DNA of 64,000 bases. It comes from Puniceicoccaceae bacterium 5H. Lineage in GTDB: Bacteria; Verrucomicrobiota; Verrucomicrobiia; Opitutales; Oceanipulchritudinaceae. Where the stretch lies: the NCBI GenBank assembly GCA_009772895.1, contig WOUP01000014.1, forward strand, positions 1-64,000, given 5' to 3'. The translations under genes and the position numbers were made by a program. The notes beneath the pieces were generated by a model. The model was given only the letters and a program-made list of their open reading frames with translations, had not been told where the DNA came from and did no database searches. This document shows, one piece after another, positions 1 through 64,000 of the stretch; position 1 is the stretch's first letter, and each line of letters opens with the position of its first letter.

Positions 1-10
1 CCGCAACGGT

Positions 11-119
11 GGCACGCCCTCCGGGTTGCAATCGCGCGAGGGGGGACGTTCCGGTGGTGTCGGAGCCCTTGCGGTTCCCCTCAACCACCGGCCACAGGCT
101 GCGACCCCTCCGGGGTCGC
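11..119 (+). repeat. REP-like three-hairpin repeat, single copy
   Basis: One copy of the palindromic repeat family that also forms arrays at 4753-6011 and 24107-25432. It consists of a left hairpin at 11-29 (loop CTCCG), a central arm pairing CCGGTGGT (51-58) with ACCACCGG (84-91), and a right hairpin at 101-119 (stem GCGACCC, loop CTCCG). Here the foot tetranucleotide next to the central arm reads GTGG on the complementary strand rather than the more common GTAG. It lies just beyond the 3' end of the hydrolase gene, and more copies may lie before the window. The short reading frames in it carry no recognisable protein. Confidence 0.85.
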
Positions 120-189
120 GCGGGGCGGGTAGGGCGCCGCGTCCACGCAAGCCGCCGGTTGGATCTCGCCTCTCATCACCGAAAACGCA

Positions 190-3410: not shown

Positions 3411-3562
3411 GGTTGCCTCTGCTGAAGCTAGCATAACGCGTTCCGAAGGATGCCCTTGGGCGCGGCGCCGGGCCGCCCGAAGCCTGACCCGTGTAGACGC
3501 GGCGGTAGAGCCTTGGGCCCAGATCGCCGGTCTTGGCACCACCGTTGCTCCCCGGCAAGGCC

Positions 3563-4717
3563 ATGAAAGCAGCCGTATTCCACCATCCGGGCAAAATTGT
3601 CTGCGAAGAAGTACCCGACCCCAAGATCGTCGATCCGCAAGACGCGATTCTGCGCGTGACCTCCACTGCCATCTGCGGGTCCGACCTGCACATCTACGAC
3701 GGCTACCTGCCCCAGATCAAAAACATGATCCCCGGCCACGAATTCATGGGCATCGTGGAAGAGGTCGGCCCCGAGGTGAAGAACCTCAAGGTGGGCGACC
3801 GCGTGGTCGTGCCTTTCCCCATCGCCTGCGGTTGCTGCTTCTTTTGCCAGCACGAGCTGCCGGGCCACTGCGAGCACTCCAACAAGAATTACGGGCCCGA
3901 AGGCGGTCTGCTCCACCAGAAGGGGGCGGCCCTCTTTGGCTACACCGAGCTCTACGGCGGCGTCGACGGCGGCCAGGCGGAATACGTGCGCGTGCCCTAC
4001 GCCGATACCGGCCCCCGCAAGATCGAGGGCGACCTCACCGACGAACAGGTGCTCTTCCTCACCGACATCCTGCCCACCGGCTATACGGGCATCGATTGGG
4101 CCAACATCCAGGGTGGCGAGACCGTGGCCGTCTTTGGTTGCGGCCCCGTGGGGCTGATGGCGCAAAAGGTCGCGTGGTTGCGCGGCGCCAAGCGCGTGAT
4201 CGGCATCGACAAGGAAGCCTACCGCCTCGAAGCCGCCCGTCGCACCGCCCAGAGCGAGACGATCAACTACAAGGAGGTCGATCCCATCGAGGCCATTCGC
4301 GAGATGACCGACGGACGCGGCGCGGATGTCTGCGTCGACGCCGTGGGCATGGAGGCCGAACGCAGCACGCTCGACAAGCTGGGCAACGTCGTGCACGTCC
4401 AGCGCGGCACCATCAACGCCCTGCGCAACTGCTTCAGTGCCGTGCGCCGCGGCGGCTTCGTCAGCGTGCTCGGCGTCTACGGCATGTCTTACGACAACTT
4501 CCCCATCGGCCAGATCTTCGACAAGGGCCTGCAGATCGCCTGCGGTCAGGCCCCCGTGCACAAATACATCGATCACCTGATCGACATCGTGCAGCAACAA
4601 AAGATCGTGCTGGACGACATCATCACGCACCGCCTCCCGCTCTCGGAGATCAGCCACGGCTACGACATCTTCAAGAAAAAGGAAGACAACTGCGTCAAAG
4701 TCGTGCTCACCCCGTAA
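3563..4717 (+). CDS. Zinc-dependent alcohol dehydrogenase, formaldehyde dehydrogenase type
   Basis: A 384-residue medium-chain dehydrogenase. It shows a catalytic zinc site (TAICGSDLH, GHEFMG), the structural zinc cysteines in CGCCFFCQHELPGHC, and a Rossmann motif VFGCGPVGLMA at about residue 195. Length and the insert after the Rossmann fold resemble the glutathione-independent formaldehyde dehydrogenase branch, so oxidation of formaldehyde or another small aldehyde or alcohol with NAD+ is likely, though the substrate is not certain. It is divergent from the lipoprotein/CDF pair and ends next to a large repeat array. The start at 3563 (MKAAVFH) is the family's usual beginning, with AAGG upstream. 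Confidence 0.9.
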   Translation: MKAAVFHHPGKIVCEEVPDPKIVDPQDAILRVTSTAICGSDLHIYDGYLPQIKNMIPGHEFMGIVEEVGPEVKNLKVGDRVVVPFPIACGCCFFCQHELPGHCEHSNKNYGPEGGLLHQKGAALFGYTELYGGVDGGQAEYVRVPYADTGPRKIEGDLTDEQVLFLTDILPTGYTGIDWANIQGGETVAVFGCGPVGLMAQKVAWLRGAKRVIGIDKEAYRLEAARRTAQSETINYKEVDPIEAIREMTDGRGADVCVDAVGMEAERSTLDKLGNVVHVQRGTINALRNCFSAVRRGGFVSVLGVYGMSYDNFPIGQIFDKGLQIACGQAPVHKYIDHLIDIVQQQKIVLDDIITHRLPLSEISHGYDIFKKKEDNCVKVVLTP

Positions 4718-4752
4718 CCCGAGCCGTTGCGGGTGGGGATCGGTCCGTTGCG

Positions 4753-6011
4753 GGCACCTCTTCAAGGTGCCTCCGTGTGGGGGACGGGATACCGGTGGTG
4801 TCGCCCGCTGACGCAGGCTCAACCACCGGCTATAAGCTGGCAAGCCTTCAGCTTGCTGGGGATATCCAAAACGCGTTGGCAAACCGGCGGCTTACGCGGA
4901 CACGCTGGGCCCTGCCTTGTCCCGCCCCGCGCGACCCCGGAGGGGTCACAGCCTATAGCCGGTGGTTGAGGGGGGACCGCAGGGCACCCCGACACCACGG
5001 GAGCGCCCCCCCTCGCGCGATTGCACCCTGAAGGGCGTGCCACCGTTGCGGGTGGGGATCGGCCCGTTGCTGGCACCTCTTCAAGGTGCTTCCGTGGGGG
5101 GACGGGATACCGGTGGTGTCGCCCGCTGACGCAGGCTCAACCACCGGCTAGATGCTGGCATCCCGCCGGGATGCTCGGGGTGGGGGACCTCGCGCTCCGA
5201 AACGTGTTGGGCGTTCGGCGACTAGCGTGCACGTTGCGCCCTACCGTGTTCCCTTCCGCGCGACCCCGGAGGGGTCACAGCCTGTAGCCGGTGGTTGAGG
5301 GGGACCGCAGGGGCTCCGACACCACCGGAATGCCCCCCTCGCACGAATGCACCCCGAAGGGTGTGCCACCGTAGCGGGTGGGAATCGGCCCGTTGCTGGC
5401 ACCTCTTCAAGGTGCCTACGTCGGCGGGAGACGGGCTACCGGTGGTGTCGCCCGCGGTGCGTGCTCAACCACCGGCTAGAGGCTGGCATCCCGCCGGGAT
5501 GCAGGGGAACCCCGCACTCAAAAAACAGCGATGGCACCGGTTGATGTTCGCTCGCGTCCCTCCAAGCCCCATTGGCAACCAGCTGCTTATGCGGACGCTG
5601 TATCCTATCGGTCCGCCCCGCGCGACCCCGGAGGGGTCACAGCCTGTAGCCGGTGGTTGAGGGGGACCGCGAGGGACCCCGACACCACCGGAACGTCCCC
5701 CCTCGCGCGATTGCACCCCGAAGGGCGTGCCACCGTTGCGGGTGGGGATCGGTCCGTTGCTGGCACCTCTTCAAGGTGCCTACGTCGGCGGGAGACGGCA
5801 AACCGGTGGTGTCGCCCGCGATGCGGGCTCAACCACCGGCTAGAGGCTGGCAAGCCTTCAGCTTGCTGGGGATATCCAAAACGCGTTGGCAAACTGGCGG
5901 CTTACGCGGACACGCTGGGCCCTGCCTTGTCCCGCCCCGCGCGACCCCGGAGGGGGCGCAGCCTGTAGCCGGTGGTTGAGAGGGGACCGCAGGGCACCCC
6001 GACACCACCGG
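4753..6011. repeat. Array of eight alternating REP-like palindromic repeats
   Basis: Fills the gap between two convergent genes. Eight units occur at 4753-4855 (+), 4933-5040 (-), 5073-5174 (+), 5262-5366 (-), 5398-5502 (+), 5624-5730 (-), 5762-5865 (+) and 5941-6011 (-, lacking its end hairpin), strictly alternating in orientation. Each has a central CCGGTGGT...ACCACCGG arm flanked by short hairpins with 5-base loops (CTTCA, CGGAG, CGAAG, CGCCG or complements). The hairpin stems differ while pairing is kept. The spacers 4856-4932 and 5866-5940 are nearly identical, so part of the array was duplicated recently. I see no protein gene here. Confidence 0.9.
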
Positions 6012-6071
6012 AGCGTCCACACAAGCCGTGCTATCGGTGAATGCAGAGCGCCCTCGGGCGCTTGTTGGCGC

Positions 6072-6836
6072 TTAGAAGCCGATGGAGGCGCCGCCGTCGA
6101 CGGGCAGGGTCACGCCGGTGATGAACTTGGAGGCGGGGGAGACAAGGTAGACCGCCGCCCAGCCGATGTCTTCCGGTTGACCAAGGCAGGCCATGGGTGT
6201 GCGGCCCAGGATCTTCTGCTTGCGTGTGGGGTCGCCGTCCAATGCCTTGCGCGACATTTCGGTCTCGATCCAGCCGGGCGCGATGGCGTTGACGCGCACG
6301 CCGTCGGCGGAAAGCTCGGTCGCGAGGCCCTTGACGATGCCCACGTAGGCCGACTTGGCCGCGGTGTAGGCGATCACCTTCGGGATACCGAACAGCGAGG
6401 CCATCGAGGCGGTAAAGAGCACCGTGCCGTGCTTGCGCTCCACCATCGCGGGGGCCAGGGCGCAGGTCAGCGCGTGGGCGCCCAACACGTGGGTATCGAG
6501 CACCTTCTGGAACTCGTCCGTGCTGGTCTCGAGCGCGGGCTTTTTCAGGTGGATGCCGGCGTTGTTGACCAGGCTCGTGATGGGACCGAATTGAGCCTGC
6601 GCGCGCTGGGCGAGGTCTGGCGCCTGCTGAAACTGGGTCACGTCGTGCACGAGGTAGTGCGCGCGTTCGCCGAGGCGTTCGACGGCCTTGGCCAGTTCGG
6701 TTTCGCGGCGGCCGACGAGCACCACCTGGGCGCCCGCGGAGTGCATGGCTTCGGCGATGGCGAGCCCGATGCCGGAGCCGCCCCCGGTGATGAGGGCGGT
6801 TTCGTTGGCGAGGGAAAAAGCGGCGAGGAAGTTCAT
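6072..6836 (-). CDS. SDR-family oxidoreductase, probable D-mannonate oxidoreductase
   Basis: A 254-residue classical short-chain dehydrogenase. It has the NAD(P) motif TGGGSGIG near residue 18, NNAG in the middle, the catalytic Ser in the FTASMAS segment, and the YxxxK active site as YTAAK. Its ATG overlaps the stop of the mannonate dehydratase gene by 4 bases (ATGA), so the two are coupled. In several bacteria an SDR next to uxuA replaces UxuB and interconverts fructuronate and mannonate; that role is inferred from the neighbour. A gluconate 5-dehydrogenase-like activity is the alternative. A GC-rich hairpin without a U-tract lies just downstream at 6047-6062. It is the last gene of the TRAP-uxuA operon. 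Confidence 0.85.
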
Positions 6837-7909
6837 CGGGAGGGGATGTCGAGGGTTTGCATGACGCCCTTCATGTAGCCGAGGGCGTAGGCCATGCCGG
6901 CGTGCCAAGGGGCGGCGCAGGCCATCTGGGGCGTGTGGTCGGGGATCAGCACGCCGTCGAACTGGTTCTTTTGCAGGATCTTCATGATGCGCACCATGTC
7001 GACCTCGCCGTCGTCGATAAAGGTCTCCTTGTAGTCGGGCACCTTGCCGCGCACGTTGCGGAAGTGGATGTAGGCCAGGCGGTCCTGCTGGCTGTAGTGG
7101 TCGACCACCTCATAGATGTCGCCCTCCGTCATCTCGGCCAGTGAGCCGATGCAAAACTCCAGCGCGTTGGCCGGGGAGGGTGAGAGGTCGACCAGCTTCT
7201 GGTAGAGGCTGGGCTGGTAGACGAGCCGCGGCTGACCCCGTACCGTCGGCATGGGGGGATCGTCCGGATGAGCGGCCAGACGCACACCCGCGGCTTCCGC
7301 CACCGGCACCACCTCGTCGAGGAAGGCCTGCAGGCGGCGCCACAACTCCTCGTGCGAGACCGGGGGCAGGGTGCCTTCGGGCGCATCGGGGTCGTAAACC
7401 ATGTTCCAGACCATGCCCAGCGGCAGCGGCAGATCGTAAGGGCCCTCCATGCCGACGGAATCGGCGGCGCCGCGCGCGTAAGGGCCGGTGGTGCGACCTG
7501 CGACGCCGGCGAGGGAAAAGTTGTAGCCCATCACCGGGATGCCGGCCTCGCCCATGCGGCGCAGGATCGTCTTGACGTTTTCGATGTGTTGGGCGCGCTT
7601 CGGGCCGTCGAGCAGGATGTCGTGCCAGTGGGCAGGGTCGAAGTTTTCGATCGCCTCCAGCTTCAGGCCGGCGTCCTCGACGTTGCGGCGCAGCTGCACC
7701 AGTTCCTCCAGCGTCCAGAGCGCGTCGGGATCGCCGGCGAGGCCCCAGCCCCGGTCGGTGCCGGTGGGCTGGTCGTCGCTGTTTTCCTTGCCGCTGCCAC
7801 GGAAGTAGTCCACCAGGTGGGCGACGATGTGGGTCGCGCCCGCCTGTTTGGCAAAGCGGAAGTTCTCCGGCGTGAGCATATGCCGGTAAAGTCCTAGACC
7901 GAGTTTCAT
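6833..7909 (-). CDS. uxuA: Mannonate dehydratase
   Basis: A 358-residue UxuA protein, which converts D-mannonate to 2-keto-3-deoxy-D-gluconate in hexuronate breakdown, using Mn2+ or Fe2+ in a TIM barrel. Recognisable segments include the N-terminal barrel strand, [15 protein letters not shown], the metal-binding [24 protein letters not shown] and IPDHTPQM. Length fits the shorter (non-enterobacterial) branch. It follows the TRAP permease gene and overlaps the downstream SDR gene by 4 bases. This supports an operon that imports a hexuronate and carries it to KDG together with the glucuronate isomerase encoded at 26742-28142. KDG kinase and aldolase genes are not in the window. Confidence 0.95.
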
Positions 7910-7931: not shown

Positions 7932-9221
7932 CTAGAGCCCCATCAGCCGAGGCAGCCAAAGGGAGATCTCGGGCACATAGGTGATGATGAGCAGCCCTAC
8001 GACCATCGCCCCGAAGATCGGCAACAGGGGCCGGAAGACCGACGCCAGCGTGGTGTTGCCGACGCTGCAGCCGATGAAGAGGCAGGCGCCGACGGGCGGG
8101 GTGCAGAGGCCGATGCAGAGGTTGGCGATCATGATGACGCCGAAGTGCACCGGATCGACGCCGATGTGCTGCATCACGGGCAGGAAGATCGGGGCGAAGA
8201 TCAGGATCGCGGGCGTCATGTCCATAAACACCCCGACGATGAGCAGCATCACGTTGATGATGAGCAGGATCACAATCGGGTTGTCCGAAATCGCGAGCAT
8301 GGCCTGGCTGACGGTCTGCGGCACCTGCAGGTAGGTCAGCGACCACGACATGGCCTGGCTTGCGCCGATCAGCAGCATCACGACGGAGGTCATCTTGGCC
8401 GCGCGCAGGATGATGTCGGGCAGTTGCTTCGTCGAGATCTCCCGGTAGAAGACCATCGTGAGCAGCAGCGCGTAGGCGACTGCCACGGCCGAGGCCTCGG
8501 TGGCCGAAAACACGCCGCCGAAGATGCCGCCGAGCACGATGATGATCAGCAGCAGGCTGGGCAGGGCCGAGAGGAAGGTGGTGGCAATGCGCTTGAAGGA
8601 CGCCGCATTGGTCTCCGGGCTCAGGTTGCGCCGGCTGAGGTAAAAGAACGACGAGCCCATGATCAGCAGGCCGATCAGGATGCCCGGCAGCACGCCCGCC
8701 ATGAAGAGCGCCGCCACCGATACATTACCCGCCACCACGGCGTAGACGATCATGACGTTGCTCGGCGGGATGAGCAGGCCCGTGGTGGCAGACGTGGTCG
8801 TGACCGCCACGCTGAAGCCGCGCCCGTAGTTCTTGCGCTCCATCTCCGGCAGCATGAAGCCGCCGACCGACGATACCGCCGCGGCCGCCGAACCGGCGAT
8901 CGCGCCGAAGAGCATGCAGGTGAGCGTATTGACGTAGGCCAGGCCGCCGGGCAGGCGCCCCATTACGGCCGAGGCAAAGTCGACCAGGCGCCGCGCCATA
9001 CCGCCTTCTCCCATCAGCACGCCCGAGAGCACGAAAAAGGGGATGGCGAGCAGGGGGAAGCTGGCGATGCCGTTGGCCATGCGCTGCGCCACCAGGTAGG
9101 TCGTGGGCAAGTCGCCGATGGCGAAGATCGAGACCAGCGCCGCCATGCCGATACACACCGCGATGGGCACGTTGAGCAGCAGCAGCGAGGCGAAGCAGAC
9201 GATGATGATGAGAATCTCCAT
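7932..9221 (-). CDS. TRAP transporter large permease (DctM-like)
   Basis: A 429-residue, highly hydrophobic protein with the pattern of the DctM/UxuM large subunit of TRAP transporters: about 12 membrane segments, the N-terminal NVPIAVCIG motif, GLLIPPSNVMIVYA near residue 150, and a C-terminal TPPVGACLF. It couples Na+-driven uptake of organic acids across the inner membrane, working with the small permease (9225-9725) and the periplasmic binding protein (9722-10747). The genes are spaced by only 3 bases from the small subunit and 22 bases from uxuA. The linkage to uxuA suggests that the substrate is a hexuronate such as glucuronate or galacturonate. Confidence 0.93.
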   Translation of the reverse strand: MEILIIIVCFASLLLLNVPIAVCIGMAALVSIFAIGDLPTTYLVAQRMANGIASFPLLAIPFFVLSGVLMGEGGMARRLVDFASAVMGRLPGGLAYVNTLTCMLFGAIAGSAAAAVSSVGGFMLPEMERKNYGRGFSVAVTTTSATTGLLIPPSNVMIVYAVVAGNVSVAALFMAGVLPGILIGLLIMGSSFFYLSRRNLSPETNAASFKRIATTFLSALPSLLLIIIVLGGIFGGVFSATEASAVAVAYALLLTMVFYREISTKQLPDIILRAAKMTSVVMLLIGASQAMSWSLTYLQVPQTVSQAMLAISDNPIVILLIINVMLLIVGVFMDMTPAILIFAPIFLPVMQHIGVDPVHFGVIMIANLCIGLCTPPVGACLFIGCSVGNTTLASVFRPLLPIFGAMVVGLLIITYVPEISLWLPRLMGL

Positions 9222-9224
9222 GGT

Positions 9225-9725
9225 CTAGGCTGCCTCCTCTCCGTCTTTGCGCTGGAAGAGCAGCACGAGGTGCTCGACCGCAAACAGCATGAAAAAGAAC
9301 CCCGTGATGGGCACGCCGAGGTAGACGTAGCCCTTGGGGATGCCGAGGGAAGACGTCATCTGCCCTGCGTCCAGGGTGCGCTCGACCAGGATGCTACCCC
9401 CAATGAGCAGCCCGAAGAGCGAGAAGCAGAAGACCACGACCTCGGAAAAGACCATGGCGGCCTTGCGCGCGTCGGGCGTCATCTTGCCGGTAAAGTAGTC
9501 GACCCCCAGGTGGCCGTTTTCCTCGTAGGTCACGGCCGCGCCCAGCAGCGAAACCCACACGAGCAGATAGATCGCGAGCTCTTCCGTCCATTGGCTCTGC
9601 GCGTTGAGCACGTAGCGTGAAAACACGCCCCAGAGCACATCGACGACGAGCACGGAAAAGCTGATGATGAGGATCCACTTCAGGGCGTGGACCAAGCCGT
9701 GGCGTAAGCTTTGCACGGCGCTCAT
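9225..9725 (-). CDS. TRAP transporter small permease (DctQ-like)
   Basis: A 166-residue protein with four predicted membrane helices and the DctQ-type segments VFSRYVLN, WTEELAIYLLVW and GHLGVDYF. In TRAP systems the small subunit pairs with the large permease and with the substrate-loaded binding protein. The start at 9725 (MSAVQSL) is chosen because it overlaps the binding-protein stop by 4 bases (ATGA). The charged C-terminus FQRKDGEEAA is typical of a cytoplasmic tail. Confidence 0.92.
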   Translation of the reverse strand: MSAVQSLRHGLVHALKWILIISFSVLVVDVLWGVFSRYVLNAQSQWTEELAIYLLVWVSLLGAAVTYEENGHLGVDYFTGKMTPDARKAAMVFSEVVVFCFSLFGLLIGGSILVERTLDAGQMTSSLGIPKGYVYLGVPITGFFFMLFAVEHLVLLFQRKDGEEAA

Positions 9726-17135: not shown

Positions 17136-20000
17136 ATGACCTCAAAACGATTCCTGATCCCGATCCTGCTGCTCTTGTTCGCGTCCGGTCGCCTTTTTGC
17201 GCTGGGCGAGCCGCAGGTGATCCAATTCCGCCCCGGTGACGGCGCTCTGGCGCTGGTCGCGCAGGGCAAGGCCTTGCCGCTTTGGCTCGATGCCGATGAC
17301 GACCCCGGCGTGCTGCGCGCCGCTGGCGACCTGCAGGCCGACTTCGAGCGTGTGACGCAAATTCGCCCGGAGCTTTCGACCGCCCAACGCAGCCCCGGCC
17401 GCAAGGTCATCCTCGCCGGCACCCTGGGCACACCGCTGATCGACCGCCTCGTCGAAGCGGGCAAGCTCGACACGACCCAGCTGGAGGGGCGCTGGGAAGC
17501 CTTTTGGATCGGGCAGGTCGAGCAGCCGGCCAAAGGCGTCGACCGCGCGCTGGTGGTCGTCGGCAGCGACCGCCGCGGCACGATTTACGGCCTCTACACG
17601 CTCTCCGAACAGATGGGCGTCTCCCCCTGGTATTGGTGGGCAGACGTGCCGGTGGACACGCACGAGGCCCTCTACGCCCGGGCCGAGCCGCTCTATGACG
17701 ACGGTCCGACGGTCCAGTATCGCGGCATCTTCCTCAACGACGAAGCCCCCGCGCTGACCGGTTGGGTCAACGAAAAGTTCGGCGGCTACAATCACGCCTT
17801 TTACGGCCACCTCTTCGAGCTGATCCTGCGTATGAAGGGCAACTTCCTCTGGCCCGCCATGTGGGGCAGCGCGTTCTTCGACGACGATGCACAGAACGGC
17901 CCGTTGGCCGACGAATACGGCATCGTCATGAGCACCTCCCACCACGAGCCGATGAACCGGGCGCACGCCGAATGGGGGCGTTACGGCGAGGGGCCCTGGG
18001 AATACCGTGAAAACGCCGAGAAGCTGCAGCAGTTCTGGACCGAAGGCATCCGCCGCAGCAAGGACTGGGAAACCTACATCACCCTCGGCATGCGCGGCGA
18101 CGGCGACGAGCCGATGTCGGAAGACGCCAACGTGGATCTGCTCGAGCGTATCGTGCACGACCAGCGCGAGATCCTGCAGCGCGAGATGGATCGCCCCCTG
18201 GAAGACATCCCGCAAGTCTGGGCCCTCTACAAGGAGGTGCAGGAATACTACGAGCGCGGTATGCGCGTGCCCGACGATGTGACGCTGCTCTGGACGGACG
18301 ACAACTGGGGCAACATTCGCCGCCTGCCGGCTCCGGACGAGATGGACCGCTCCGGCGGCGCAGGCGTGTATTACCACTTTGACTACGTGGGCGGTCCGCG
18401 CTCCTACAAGTGGATGAACATCATGCCGATCACCAAGATCTGGCAGCAGATGAACCTCGCCTGGCAGTACGAGGCCAACCGCATCTGGGTCGTCAACGTG
18501 GGCGATCTCAAGCCGATGGAATTCCCGACCGAATTTTTCCTCACCTACGCCTGGGATCCCGCCGCCTGGCCTTACGAGCGCCTGACCGCATACCACCGCC
18601 AGTGGGCGGCCCGCGAGTTCGGCCCCGAACATGCCGATGCGATCGCCCACCTCATCGCGACCTACACCAAATACAATAGCCGCCGCAAGCCGGAGCAGAT
18701 GACGCCCGACACCTTCAGCCTGATCCACTACGATGAGGCCGAGCGCGTGGTGGCCGATTGGCAGGCGCTGGTGGCCGAAGCGAAAAAGGTGCAGGCGCAG
18801 CTGCCCGAGTCGATGCAGTCGGCCTATTTCCAACTGGTGCAGTATCCCATCGAGGCCTCCGCTACGGTGGTCGAACTCTACGTGTCGGCGGGCGAAAACC
18901 AGCTCTTCGGCTTCCAGGGGCGCGAGGCCACCAATGCCGCCGCCGACCGCACGGTCGCGCTATTCGAGCGGGACGATGCGTTGGCCCGGCAATACCACCA
19001 GATCAACGACGGCAAGTGGAACCACTTCATGGCGCAGGCCAACCTCGGTTATCAGACCTGGCAGCAGCCCGACCGCGACACCATGCCGTCGGTCACCCGC
19101 GTGCATGAGCGCGAGGCGGCGCAGATGGCTGTGAGCCTGCCCGGTAGCCCGTTCTCCTGGCCCAGCAACCACCCCGGCAAGGGGGAAGCGCGCACGCCGG
19201 TCCTCAGTGCCGTGGCGCAGGACGCGACCCACCTCACCGTCTTCAACCGCGGCACCGAAGCGTTTACCTTCAGCGCGCAGGCGGAACCGGGCTGGCTGCA
19301 CGTGACGCCCGCCGAGGGCACGGTGACCGCCGGCCAGCGGCTGACCGTCTCCGCGGACTGGAGCGAGGTGCCGGCGGGTGAGCACGAGGGCAAGGTGACG
19401 CTCAAGGGCGCCGACGGCTGGCCCGTGACAGTCACGGTGCCGGTGGTGAAGCGCTCCGTGCCGGCGGACTTCCAGGGCTTCGTCGAGACCCACGGCTACA
19501 TCTCCATCGAGGCCCCGCACTTCCAGCGTCAGACGGGCAGCGACGTGCAGTGGCGCGTGCTGGAAGACTTTGGCCGCACGTTGGGCGCCGTGACGACCTT
19601 CCCGGTGCGCGCCGAGAGCGAAGCGCACCCCGGCGGTGAATCCCCGCACCTGGCCTACGACTTCTACGTCCATAGCGCGGCCGAAGAAGCGAGCGTGAAC
19701 CTGCAGTTCGCGCCCGCCTTCGCCTTCCAGCCGGGCCGTGGCCTGCGCTGCGCCGTGTCCATCGACGACGAGGCGCCGGAGATCATCGAGATCCAGGCCA
19801 CCAAGACGCACCCCATGTGGCAGCAGGCCGTCTCCAACGCCATGCACGAAGTGGCGGTGAAGCGCCAGCTGGAGCCCGGCGCGCATACGCTCAAGGTCTG
19901 GTATGTGGACCCGGGCGTGGTGCTGCAAAAGGTGGTGATCGACCTTGGCGGCCTCGAGCCGAGCTACCTCGGGCCGCCCGAAAGCCCGCTGATGCAGTAG
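17136..20000 (+). CDS. Glycoside hydrolase family 115, xylan alpha-1,2-glucuronidase
   Basis: A 954-residue secreted protein with a signal peptide ending near residue 22 and the GH115 signature segments: DRRGTIYGLYTLSEQMGVSP near residue 147, YRGIFLNDEAP near 194, GNFLWPAMWGSAF near 234, GMRGDGDEPM near 318 and LLWTDDNWGN near 384. GH115 enzymes remove (4-O-methyl)glucuronic acid from internal and terminal xylose units of intact glucuronoxylan, which complements the GH67 enzyme encoded at 21759-23921, which acts on chain ends. The C-terminal 300 residues contain beta-sandwich modules. An intrinsic terminator follows. It ends the rightward GH3-GH35-GH115 run. Confidence 0.93.
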   Translation: MTSKRFLIPILLLLFASGRLFALGEPQVIQFRPGDGALALVAQGKALPLWLDADDDPGVLRAAGDLQADFERVTQIRPELSTAQRSPGRKVILAGTLGTPLIDRLVEAGKLDTTQLEGRWEAFWIGQVEQPAKGVDRALVVVGSDRRGTIYGLYTLSEQMGVSPWYWWADVPVDTHEALYARAEPLYDDGPTVQYRGIFLNDEAPALTGWVNEKFGGYNHAFYGHLFELILRMKGNFLWPAMWGSAFFDDDAQNGPLADEYGIVMSTSHHEPMNRAHAEWGRYGEGPWEYRENAEKLQQFWTEGIRRSKDWETYITLGMRGDGDEPMSEDANVDLLERIVHDQREILQREMDRPLEDIPQVWALYKEVQEYYERGMRVPDDVTLLWTDDNWGNIRRLPAPDEMDRSGGAGVYYHFDYVGGPRSYKWMNIMPITKIWQQMNLAWQYEANRIWVVNVGDLKPMEFPTEFFLTYAWDPAAWPYERLTAYHRQWAAREFGPEHADAIAHLIATYTKYNSRRKPEQMTPDTFSLIHYDEAERVVADWQALVAEAKKVQAQLPESMQSAYFQLVQYPIEASATVVELYVSAGENQLFGFQGREATNAAADRTVALFERDDALARQYHQINDGKWNHFMAQANLGYQTWQQPDRDTMPSVTRVHEREAAQMAVSLPGSPFSWPSNHPGKGEARTPVLSAVAQDATHLTVFNRGTEAFTFSAQAEPGWLHVTPAEGTVTAGQRLTVSADWSEVPAGEHEGKVTLKGADGWPVTVTVPVVKRSVPADFQGFVETHGYISIEAPHFQRQTGSDVQWRVLEDFGRTLGAVTTFPVRAESEAHPGGESPHLAYDFYVHSAAEEASVNLQFAPAFAFQPGRGLRCAVSIDDEAPEIIEIQATKTHPMWQQAVSNAMHEVAVKRQLEPGAHTLKVWYVDPGVVLQKVVIDLGGLEPSYLGPPESPLMQ

Positions 20001-23921: not shown

Positions 23922-24106
23922 CGGGAGAAAAGTCTGGGGCTGCTAAGGGGGGAGAGAAAGTCGCCGTCGGGAGGCGAAGGGGCAGTCGCCAGCGCCTCGA
24001 TCAAACGCATCGGGCGCGCTGCTTTTCAGGCTGTTCGCCCCCCTTCGCACGAGCAAAAGCGTCGCGGTTCTAACATTAGATTTTTGCCGAGATTCGGGCA
24101 GTGCTG

Positions 24107-25432
24107 GCATCCCTTCAGGATGCGGTTTTGCGGTGGGGGGGTCCGGTGGTGTCGTGCCCTTGGCGGGCCCTCAACCACCGGCTACAGGCTGGCACCTCTC
24201 CGAGGTGCTGGCCCCGGGGCGCTCGTTGCCCCGTGGGCGCGGTGGCGCATGAGGATAGCCGAAAGTGCCACTGGGAGGTGTCGTTACCATGGACGTCCCT
24301 CTCCGGAAGCACCCAGCGCGTAGGGTGATAGGGGGGCTTCGTCGTTCCATCATGAGAGGGTGTCAGGTATCGCGTAGACGCCTGCGGCCCGGAGTTCGAG
24401 CATAGGCGGCCGCGAAAATATGCCTTCGCCCCTCGCTCAACCATGAACGCAGGCCGCTTGGGGATTGCGTAGATGCTCGGGATGCGCTTGACCCCGAAGG
24501 GGTCCCATAACGTAGCCGGTGGTTGAAGCCGCTCTTGGCGGCTGATACCACCTGTTGCCGCCCGGTCATGTTCGCACCTTGAAGAGGTGCCATAGTGCTA
24601 TCATGATGCTGGCATCCCTTCTGGATGCGGTTTTGCGGTGGGGCGGGTCCGGTGGTGTCGTGCCCTTGATGGGCCCTCAACCACCGGCTACAGGCTGCAC
24701 CTCTCCGAGGTGCTGGCCGCGGGGCGCTCGTTGCCACGCGGACGCGCTGGCGCATGAGGATGGCCGAATGTGCCGCCGGGAGGGTGTCGTGACCATGGAC
24801 GTGCCTCTCTGGAAGCATCCCGCGCGTAGGGCGATCGGGGGCTTAGTCGTTCGATCATGAGAGGGTGCCGGGTATCGCGCAGACGCCTGCGGCCCGGAGT
24901 TCGAGCATAGGCTGCTGCGAAAATATGCCTTCGCCCCTCGCCCAACCATGAACGCAGGCCGTGTCCGGGGATTGCGTAGATGCTCGGGATGCGCTTGACC
25001 CCGAAGGGGTCCCATAACGTAGCCGGTGGTTGAAGCCGCTCTTGGCGGCTGATACCCCCGGTTGCGCCCGGTCATGTTCGCACCTTGAAGAGGTGCCATA
25101 GTGCTGCAGAAACATGCCTTCGCCCCTCGCTCAACCATGAACGCAGGCCGTGTCCGGGGATTGCGGAGACGCTCGGGATGCGCATGACCCCGGAGGGGTC
25201 CCATAACGTAGCCGGTGGTTGAAGCCGCTCTTGGCGGCTGATACCACCGGTTGCGCCCGGTCATGTTCGCACCTTGAAGAGGTGCCATAGCGTCGCTTTC
25301 ATGCTGGGGAATGCTGCGTTTGCTCACCGCGCAACCCCGACGGGGTTGCAGCTTATAGCCGGTGGTTGAGGTGACGCAGTCACCGACACCACCGGAACAC
25401 GCCGCCGGACCCTCGGCATCCTGAAGGGATGC
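24107..25432. repeat. Second array of six REP-like palindromic repeats
   Basis: Occupies the 1.6 kb between the GH67 and GH5 genes. Units lie at 24107-24208 (+), 24490-24590 (-), 24612-24713 (+), 24997-25096 (-), 25186-25285 (-) and 25331-25432 (-). Architecture matches the array at 4753-6011: a central CCGGTGGT/ACCACCGG arm between hairpins with 5-base loops such as CTTCA, CTCCG, CGAAG and CGACG. The 0.5-kb blocks 24107-24600 and 24612-25100 are near copies of each other, and the 25115-25285 block repeats part again. Short frames in it are artefacts of the repeats; I see no gene. Confidence 0.9.
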
Positions 25433-25461
25433 CAGCACCGACGCTCCACCATGCTGCAGCA

Positions 25462-37738: not shown

Positions 37739-37967
37739 AGTTCTCTATTTCGGCAGCCTGCGGGCCCAGCGCGGCACCGGGCACGAAGCGATCCATACCA
37801 CCGCCGAAAGCCCGCGCGCGCTCTACCTCGAGCTGTCGCGCCAACACGGCTTCAGCCTGCCGGTCGAGCGGATCCTCTTTGCGGTCGACGACGATTACAC
37901 CGAGGTCGACGCGCCCCTGCCAGAGCGCGGCACGCTCGCCATCATGCCCCCCTTGGCCGGAGGTTGA
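37725..37967 (+). CDS. moaD: Molybdopterin synthase small subunit MoaD
   Basis: An 80-residue ubiquitin-like sulphur carrier. It ends in the required Gly-Gly (MPPLAGG), which is adenylated and thiocarboxylated before delivering sulphur in molybdopterin synthase. It starts with KQLEVLYFGSLRAQRG, and FAVDDDYTEVDAPL is the typical middle part. It overlaps the end of mobA and is followed 2 bases later by moaE. A MoeB-type activating enzyme is not in this window. Confidence 0.93.
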   Translation: MKQLEVLYFGSLRAQRGTGHEAIHTTAESPRALYLELSRQHGFSLPVERILFAVDDDYTEVDAPLPERGTLAIMPPLAGG

Positions 37968-63744: not shown

Positions 63745-64000
63745 GCGAGTGGCATGAGATAGCCGCTTGGTTCTTTAGCGTCAGGCCTTCGCTCCGACCG
63801 CTTCGGCGGCCCGGGGAGGAAAGTCCGGACACCATAGGGCAGGATTCCCGGTGAAAACCGGGGCACGGTGGGGGAGACGCCGCCGTGACGGCCAGTGCAA
63901 CAGAAAGTAAACCGCCGGCTGGTTCGCCCGTCGGTAAGGGTGAAAGGGTGGGGTAAGAGCCCACCGCCCGACCGGTAACGGCCTCGGGGCACGGTAAACC
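63745..64000 (+). ncRNA. rnpB: RNase P RNA, type A, cut off by the window end
   Basis: The catalytic RNA that matures the 5' ends of tRNAs. Conserved blocks are unmistakable: GAGGAAAGTCCGGACACCAT at about 63817, ATAGGGCAGG, GCCAGTGCAACAGAAAGTAAACCGCC near 63891-63916, GGTAAGGGTGAAAGGGTGGGGTAAGAGCCCACCG near 63935-63965, and GGTAACGGCC...GGCACGGTAAACC at the end (each quoted from separate positions). The 5' end is set at about 63745 by comparison with the E. coli molecule; the last third (about 120-150 bases) lies beyond the window. Confidence 0.96.

Follow-up and report, generated by a model that had tools for sequence, protein, structure and literature searches.

Do the repeated hairpins that fill positions 4753-6011 of the stretch of DNA analysed here (64,000 nt, called the window below) belong to a REP/BIME-like family, and which transposase is their partner? 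The window corresponds to G000:C11:1-64000, G000 being a draft genome of 4.10 Mb that is 98.6% complete and consists of 40 contigs. A sequence-only reading had counted 15 units in it, and a covariance model (R1) built from 47 units (alignment A1), among which are 8 of the 15 window units, matches exactly that number: one unit at 5-126, eight at 4747-6038 and six at 24100-25439. The window has 16 sites that match TAGCCGGTGGTTGA with up to two mismatches, 15 in the units and a stray one at 37954, for an expectation of 0.35 in shuffled sequences; none of 100 shuffles reached 16. The units are the following, each with its strand, its tetranucleotide foot, its type where assigned (A or B, defined below) and its R1 score:

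5-126, minus strand: three-hairpin unit, type B, foot GTGG, 82.3 bits
4747-4864, minus strand: array 4753-6011 unit 1, type A, foot ATAG, 112.1 bits
4924-5047, plus strand: array 4753-6011 unit 2, type B, foot ATAG, 85.4 bits
5066-5182, minus strand: array 4753-6011 unit 3, type A, foot CTAG, 116.6 bits
5253-5373, plus strand: array 4753-6011 unit 4, type B, foot GTAG, 103.6 bits
5392-5510, minus strand: array 4753-6011 unit 5, type A, foot CTAG, 111.4 bits
5615-5737, plus strand: array 4753-6011 unit 6, type B, foot GTAG, 93.3 bits
5756-5874, minus strand: array 4753-6011 unit 7, type A, foot CTAG, 112.6 bits
5934-6038, plus strand: array 4753-6011 unit 8, type B, foot GTAG, no recognisable right side hairpin, 53.0 bits
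24100-24216, minus strand: second-array unit, foot GTAG, 96.6 bits
24481-24597, plus strand: second-array unit, linker CATAAC and foot GTAG, as at the transposase locus of contig C14, 86.6 bits
24605-24721, minus strand: second-array unit, foot GTAG, 88.6 bits
24988-25103, plus strand: second-array unit, linker CATAAC and foot GTAG, 85.1 bits
25177-25292, plus strand: second-array unit, linker CATAAC and foot GTAG, 90.3 bits
25324-25439, plus strand: second-array unit, foot ATAG, 107.3 bits

The earlier tally of the feet beside the CCGGTGGT arm (GTAG in 8 units, ATAG in 3, CTAG in 3 and GTGG in 1) was reproduced exactly, as was the strict alternation claimed for the first array (- + - + - + - +), whereas the second array (24107-25432), which that claim did not cover, runs - + - + + + and strict alternation fails there. 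Like units of the first array follow each other at about 320-365 nt from start to start, and the array is bracketed by the convergent ends of two open reading frames, 3533-4717 (+), which from its sequence we take to be alcohol-dehydrogenase-like, and 6072-6908 (-), presumably SDR-like. Rfam left the repeats of the window unmatched and its sole match was RNase P; a class A RNase P RNA occupies 63773-64000, cut by the window end.

Read on the strand of the foot, a unit consists of a left side hairpin (H1, with loops such as TGAAG or GGAG), a linker mostly of 6-7 nt (CAGCCT, CAGCTT and CATAAC being the commonest in G000), the foot NTAG, a bulged central hairpin CCGGTGGT...ACCACCGG, about 20 nt, a right side hairpin (H3, most commonly GCACCTTGAAGAGGTGC or GCACCCCGAAGGGCGTGC) and CA. 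The central hairpin, or core, combines an 8-bp stem (CCGGTGGT/ACCACCGG) with a bulge and an inner stem. Alignment A1, whose 47 units were hand-picked from 84 distinct cores out of 108 units found by a regular expression, is 96.2% paired in this structure, compared with 85.3% after shuffling and 32-51% in slid versions, and contains 117 cells changed on both sides of a pair (37.5 in shuffled alignments). The short flanking hairpins described from the sequence are well supported by A1: helix 1 on the left is 97.9% paired, with both-side changes at 4/6 pairs, and helix 4 on the right is 97.6% paired, with both-side changes at 2/7. The central stem is 98.9% paired in A1 and nearly invariant within G000, where the compensatory changes lie in H1, the inner stem and H3. 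In a second alignment (A5) of 37 units from several phyla, namely the 40 that passed a filter, which took one unit per locus and required both side hairpins and a core of 28-36 nt, minus three near-identical Methylobacter rows, the central stem is 100% paired with both-side changes at 4/8 pairs, and all helices together are 92.6% paired, versus 31-46% when slid. Compensatory changes occur, in A1 and A5 combined, in all three hairpins.

A GTAG foot had been put forward as a hallmark of REP sequences. Among the 108 units of the fetched loci of G000, TAG is present in 104, but GTAG in only 48 (ATAG 28, CTAG 26, TTAG 2, GTGG 2, ATTG 1, ATCG 1), so that the foot is better written NTAG; a canonical GT[AG]G in nearly all copies was not found among them (48 GTAG plus 2 GTGG). 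Units of type A (H1 GCATCC, GCAAGC or CAATCC; 53 units) have a core of 37-38 nt and the feet CTAG (22), ATAG (15), GTAG (14) and TTAG (2), those of type B (H1 GACCC; 48 units) a core of 35-45 nt and the feet GTAG (30), ATAG (11), CTAG (3) and others (4), and seven units fall outside both types. The frequency of the GTAG foot also varies with the linker, GTAG being found in 12/12 units with CAT versus 33/81 with CAG (Fisher 7e-5). A CA dinucleotide stands at -6/-5 before the foot in 93/108 units and after H3 in 96/104.

The family is abundant in the whole genome. A blastn search of G000 with the array as query gives 133 matches and the genome-wide covariance search, a check suggested along with the first description, recovers at least 150 copies, all at E ≤ 2e-6. 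Adjacent units separated by at most 450 nt are in opposite orientation in 66 of 71 pairs and in the same orientation in five; this count covers 111 units of the fetched own loci, since the regular expression behind the set of 108 overlooks 3 of the 15 window units, which were added by hand. In many contigs of the draft (C7, C11 with the window unit 5-126, C14, C15, C18, C21, C22, C27, C32, C34 and C39), a unit lies no more than about 150 nt from a contig end. The assembly thus seems to be broken up by this family, whose real copy number may be higher.

A search of G000 with PF01797 detected three genes for Y1 HUH transposases (Y1_Tnp), all inside or beside arrays of units:

C27:11381: TnpA gene, 147 aa, inside a unit-rich contig of 17.4 kb
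C14:197: TnpA gene within another array
C2:174965: TnpA gene between units of a different core, CCGGATGTC...GACTTCCGG

The core at the C2 gene (TAGCCGGATGTC...GACTTCCGG) forms a small family with five exact copies in G000. By reading, 3/3 genes share the layout H1-foot-core-H3 / gene / H3'-core'-foot'-H1', the bracketing units being inverted with their feet pointing outwards, and each gene is accompanied by its own flavour of repeat: CAGCCT linkers at C27, CATAAC/CATATC-GTAG at C14 and another core at C2. The expectation of a repeat-flanked tnpA_REP gene thus held for the flanking units (3/3 Y1 genes) but not for the enzyme, since none of the three proteins has the Y---NP motif and none exceeds the cut-off of NF047646, the model for REP-associated tyrosine transposases: their scores (C27 19.8 bits, C14 13.1, C2 no hit) are far under the cut-off of 80. 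None of the three is a RAYT in the strict sense. The three proteins contain instead DHVH, WQ and Y---Q--HH (YVLQQ, YIAHQ and YIARQ in place of Y---NP) and score 60.8 (C27), 51.5 (C2) and 50.3 bits (C14) with NF033573, the IS200/IS605 model (cut-off 55). Judged from its motifs, this is the signature of TnpAY1 subclass 1.2 of Quentin 2018 (PMC6006769), whose accessible text describes DH[IV]H, WQ, Y---Q--HH, about 148 aa, a low copy number and a relationship to IS200. WQ is invariant in the 17 subclass 1.2 proteins of alignment A3. The subclass is also characterised by a conserved C-terminal extension of about 30 aa that has a profile of its own; in the TnpA seen here the tyrosine helix is followed by an extension, which may correspond to it. 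In E. coli TnpAREP, residues W94, Q95 and R104 are reported, in the context of GTAG recognition, to be well conserved in four REP-associated subclasses, the role of W94 being called unclear in the accessible text of the same paper (PMC6006769).

The repeats themselves behave like REP/BIME elements, as first proposed: the TAG foot adjoins a palindrome, there are at least 150 copies, 66/71 neighbouring pairs are inverted and a Y1 HUH gene is flanked by the repeat. It is the enzyme class that differs, together with the foot, which is NTAG; the family is real and was aptly described, yet it is not a plain RAYT family. We consider it most probable that these are non-autonomous, single-strand REP/BIME-like repeats partnered with a Y1 HUH transposase of TnpAY1 subclass 1.2, which would bind, cut and move them.

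We looked for this association beyond G000 by scanning genome_contigs, which contains at least 563 relatives of the transposase, and used the best 80, selected for likeness to the TnpA of G000 and its kin, with up to 4 kb of flank. In these 80 best relatives of at least 563, DHxH, WQxGY and Y---Q--HH occur together in 76 and Y---NP in none. The density of hairpins with an 8-bp stem is 3.63 per kb up to 400 nt from the gene versus 0.96 beyond 1.5 kb, and the feet of such hairpins are TAG in 142/450 cases near the gene versus 6/606 beyond 1.5 kb (80 loci, Fisher 8e-51). A TAG-footed core lies at most 350 nt from the gene at 69/80 loci, on both sides at 42, and the detector finds an inverted pair of cores with distal feet at 39/80. 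The 149 cores near the relatives' genes have the feet TTAG (91), GTAG (52), CTAG (3) and ATAG (3); H1 accompanies 105 of them (4.7 after letter shuffling) and H3 108 (6.8), the shuffles preserving base composition only. Eight of the 149, whose arms are unrelated, look as if they were hairpins formed by chance. A family-like arm is seen in the remaining 141, which come from 67 loci and are accompanied by H1 in 104 cases, by H3 in 107 and by both in 86. A complete three-hairpin unit is present at 50/80 loci from six phyla (Verrucomicrobiota 23/34, Planctomycetota 12/18, Pseudomonadota 8/9, Acidobacteriota 4/7, Sumerlaeota 2/2 and Lentisphaerota 1/1) and at none of the loci from Bacteroidota (3), Armatimonadota (3), Myxococcota (2) and Chloroflexota (1), these phylum names being those of the database records, some of which look wrong. 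In our judgement this applies to five loci (L098, L078, L096, L113 and L136) from metagenome-assembled genomes labelled Klebsiella pneumoniae or Akkermansia muciniphila.

The predicted fold of the relative L063 (mean pLDDT 90.8) has its best match in the IS200/IS605 TnpA 2xqc (Z 13.6, rmsd 1.9, 105 aligned residues) and the next best in the TnpAREP 4er8 (Z 10.1, rmsd 3.7, 122 aligned); the best IS200-type chains align with about residues 1-105 of the model and 4er8 with 5-146, and both a monomer and a swapped dimer are compatible with it. A PDB profile search returned eight sequences, all of them ISDra2, IS608 or IS200-kind transposases by name or entry, 4er8 not being among them. The IS200/IS605 model matches 39/39 relatives at E ≤ 0.001, and the TnpAREP model also matches 17/39, weakly (best E 3.4e-6). 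Given that IS200/IS605 TnpA is nearest in sequence and fold, the block formed by a unit, tnpA and an inverted unit might still be an insertion sequence, with the BIMEs as its internally deleted, MITE-like copies; by reading, the BIMEs share the outer layout of the gene block, roughly 20 nt taking the place of the gene. This explanation is unlikely, however, because the other two Y1_Tnp proteins of G000 show identities of only 51 and 52% with the first, which leaves no near-identical second block, and because IS200/IS605 elements are described, in the accessible text of PMC2817692, as devoid of terminal inverted repeats, in contrast with the inverted pair at 39/80 loci.

It is also conceivable that the units spread and persist through recombination, through slippage during replication or because they serve as RNA hairpins (as terminators or at mRNA ends), the transposase being a passenger. 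The position of the window array between convergent ORF ends, the spacing of its like units and the few copies in many of the relatives' genomes speak in favour of this scenario. Comparable roles are known for other REPs, and this counts on the same side. We nevertheless regard it as quite unlikely, since the foot is tied to the gene, as the contrast between near and far hairpins indicates, and since a role in transcription would leave unexplained both the one-sided, conserved 3-nt foot and the presence of units beside homologous genes in six phyla. Moreover, the foot and arm types track the TnpA tree. It shows 12 changes of foot type (mean of 17.9 when shuffled), 9 of core length class (15.3) and 22 of arm (31.4), each below all 200 shuffles, on a tree labelled for 65-66 of the 80 loci and with 46/94 inner branches unresolved; shared host descent could contribute to this agreement. 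As to copy number, the pattern TAGCCGGNGGTN{10,38}ACCNCCGG is found in 25 of 30 relatives' genomes (reversed-pattern control, at most 1 per genome), with at least 20 and up to 174 copies in seven, 4-19 in nine, 1-3 in nine and none in five. This strict pattern lets other core sequences escape; as only 7/30 genomes contain at least 20 copies of it, high copy number is not general.

That a classical class-2 TnpAREP (RAYT) missing from the draft serves the repeats, the subclass 1.2 genes having merely landed in the arrays, is very improbable: such a gene could have been lost where the assembly breaks at repeats, many contig ends carrying units, and class-2-type genes exist in relatives (NF047646 matches at E ≤ 0.001 in 30/30 genomes, genes over the class-2 cut-off in 18/30), but G000 is nearly complete and its only three Y1_Tnp genes are all of subclass 1.2 and all unit-flanked, similar units flank subclass 1.2 genes in other phyla, and at the control class-2 loci (20 parsed of 27 fetched, 7 of them with TAG cores) H1 accompanies only 2/17 cores, and H3 7/17, versus 105/149 for H1 near the relatives' genes. 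Since 18/30 relatives' genomes hold class-2 genes and 17/39 relatives match the TnpAREP model, if weakly, G000 is the cleanest case. The TnpAREP model has its most numerous matches in three genomes of the bacterial family of G000 (G002 91, G010 83 and G011 70), the next highest of the 30 genomes having 39.

Within that family, 17 genomes including G000, a TnpA match is found in 10 and an R1 match in 7. Four genomes (G002, G006, G010 and G014) have TnpA without an R1 match, and one (G007) has three R1 matches and no TnpA match. The congener G016 has two TnpA genes and 79 R1 matches; its genes lie, as seen by eye, amid three-hairpin units of other cores, one of them in direct, not inverted, order. 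The strict detector sees TAG cores at only 2 of the 14 subclass 1.2 loci of the family outside G000, which implies that the association is not universal in subclass 1.2; at L033 and L043, units with imperfect stems were read by eye. Other repeats seem, from a reading of the loci, to be used by the group of proteins with YVWD at their end. Among the 80 relatives' loci, 11 have no TAG-footed core, and a family-like core was found at none of the three Bacteroidota, three Armatimonadota and one Chloroflexota loci.

How would a subclass 1.2 enzyme act on these units? A single-stranded state, for example on the lagging-strand template, would expose the unit, whose central hairpin could be bound by TnpA; the enzyme would then read TAG as a guide and cut close to the CA/CAG conserved after each side hairpin, and the units so copied or moved would make arrays grow in intergenic gaps. 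The conserved TAG and the CA after both H1 and H3 in G000 fit cleavage at these CA sites under the guidance of TAG. For class-2 enzymes, the accessible text of PMC8266576 reports that GTAG is crucial and that cleavage occurs at CT, in one system also at CA, these dinucleotides being compatible with cross pairing to the foot bases A3G4 and T2G4, respectively. A strict CA rule was tried across phyla and rejected, as only 46/84 units have CA on either side, and we keep CA as a hypothetical cut site on that account; the tails outside G000 vary, mostly with C or A in first place, A or G in second and G in third.

Of the 149 units, 17 (at nine loci) have another core behind them on their own strand, at most 95 nt away, and in most of the tandem cases listed one side hairpin between the cores ends one unit and starts the next. 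A possible, though tentative, extension of the subclass 1.2 reading is that all these units form one cross-phylum repeat class moved by subclass 1.2 TnpA, with the mobile unit being NTAG-central hairpin-spacer-side hairpin-CAG. TAG would then direct the enzyme to the CA of the CAG after the side hairpin, and the unit would be released between two equivalent hairpin-CAG sites and enter beside an existing one. Such a unit would explain the direct tandem arrays that share H3/H1 and, if real, would place the class between IS200 and REPtrons as a missing link.

The repeats resemble REP/BIME elements and their class-2 TnpAREP REPtrons (for example in E. coli) in the foot tetranucleotide 5' of a bulged imperfect palindrome, the alternating orientation, the many copies, and an HUH-Y1 gene placed between inverted copies with its specific repeat flavour. 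They differ from them in the enzyme (Y---Q--HH instead of Y---NP), in the foot, whose first base is free, in the two additional conserved side hairpins and in the arms, which mostly begin with CC, whereas those at the class-2 loci seen here mostly begin with GG. With IS200/IS605 elements (IS608, ISDra2) they share the TnpA sequence family, the Y1 fold and hairpins with guide tetranucleotides (PMC8266576, accessible text); unlike them, they involve no near-identical multi-copy element, have inverted bracketing units and an enzyme with WQ instead of W[TS]. The GTAG repeats of Opitutus terrae, another verrucomicrobium, are likewise GTAG-tagged palindromes and very abundant, with GTGG as the foot of most GTAG-20 elements (Di Nocera 2013, PMC3733652); the accessible text of that paper, however, mentions no paired side hairpins for them and assigns their transposase to no subclass. 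TnpAY1 class 3 also combines an IS200-like tyrosine motif with abundant, REPtron-like structures, but it is a separate class with a CnGA foot, Y----Q and W[TA], as far as the accessible text of PMC6006769 describes it.

Subclass 1.2 itself is listed in Table 1 of Quentin 2018 with 'no' for REP and with a range of mostly Cyanobacteria and Bacteroidetes, and is said in the accessible text not to share IS properties (PMC6006769), whereas the units described here flank loci in the six phyla listed above. The automatic REP search of that study used, according to the same text, rules derived from REPs with GTAG or GTGG; TTAG being the commonest foot in the relatives (91/149), this may be why the units were missed. 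Our literature search, which covered mostly papers open without subscription and without their supplements, returned no tie between subclass 1.2 and REPs and no description of a three-hairpin unit. A whole subclass of Y1 HUH enzymes, described without IS features or REPs and so with no known substrate, would gain a candidate one, found in six phyla, and repeats with TAG feet also occur beside enzymes that lack Y---NP. The system offers a testable case of an IS transposase becoming a REP mobiliser and probably accounts for the origin of a repeat class that is abundant and, here, also breaks the genome assembly.

Comparison with the congener G016 shows that arrays come or go within the genus, whichever enzyme is responsible. 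At locus L013 of G000, four units at 647-1702 occupy 1,056 nt between the flanking alignments, compared with 90 nt in G016, and another four at 18048-18805 occupy 758 nt, compared with 151 nt; R1 finds no match in the two corresponding intergenic stretches of G016. The window array 4753-6011 was discarded as a clean empty site, because the homologues of its flanks are on different contigs of G016, which indicates a rearranged place; R1 has no match at these two G016 loci or in longer stretches around them. A further cluster of L013 (cluster 2, 8999-9264) was set aside as evidence of insertion, other DNA lying opposite to it in G016.

Two variations of the unit complete this picture. Five loci (L096, L103, L113, L117 and L136) have central hairpins of 20 nt (CCGGTGGC), with a TTAG foot in most units, mostly with side hairpins and often with linkers like CGGAAA or GAGAAA. 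In the own genome's loci, a GCATCC-type hairpin, elsewhere an H1 sequence, occupies the place of H3 at 24143, 24649 and 25355 of the window, and the same arrangement recurs at L016 (8979), L017 (1227 and 1599) and L026 (663), two of these units having a GCACCT-type hairpin as H1. The presence of GCATCC-type hairpins at the H3 place suggests that the side hairpins are exchangeable modules.
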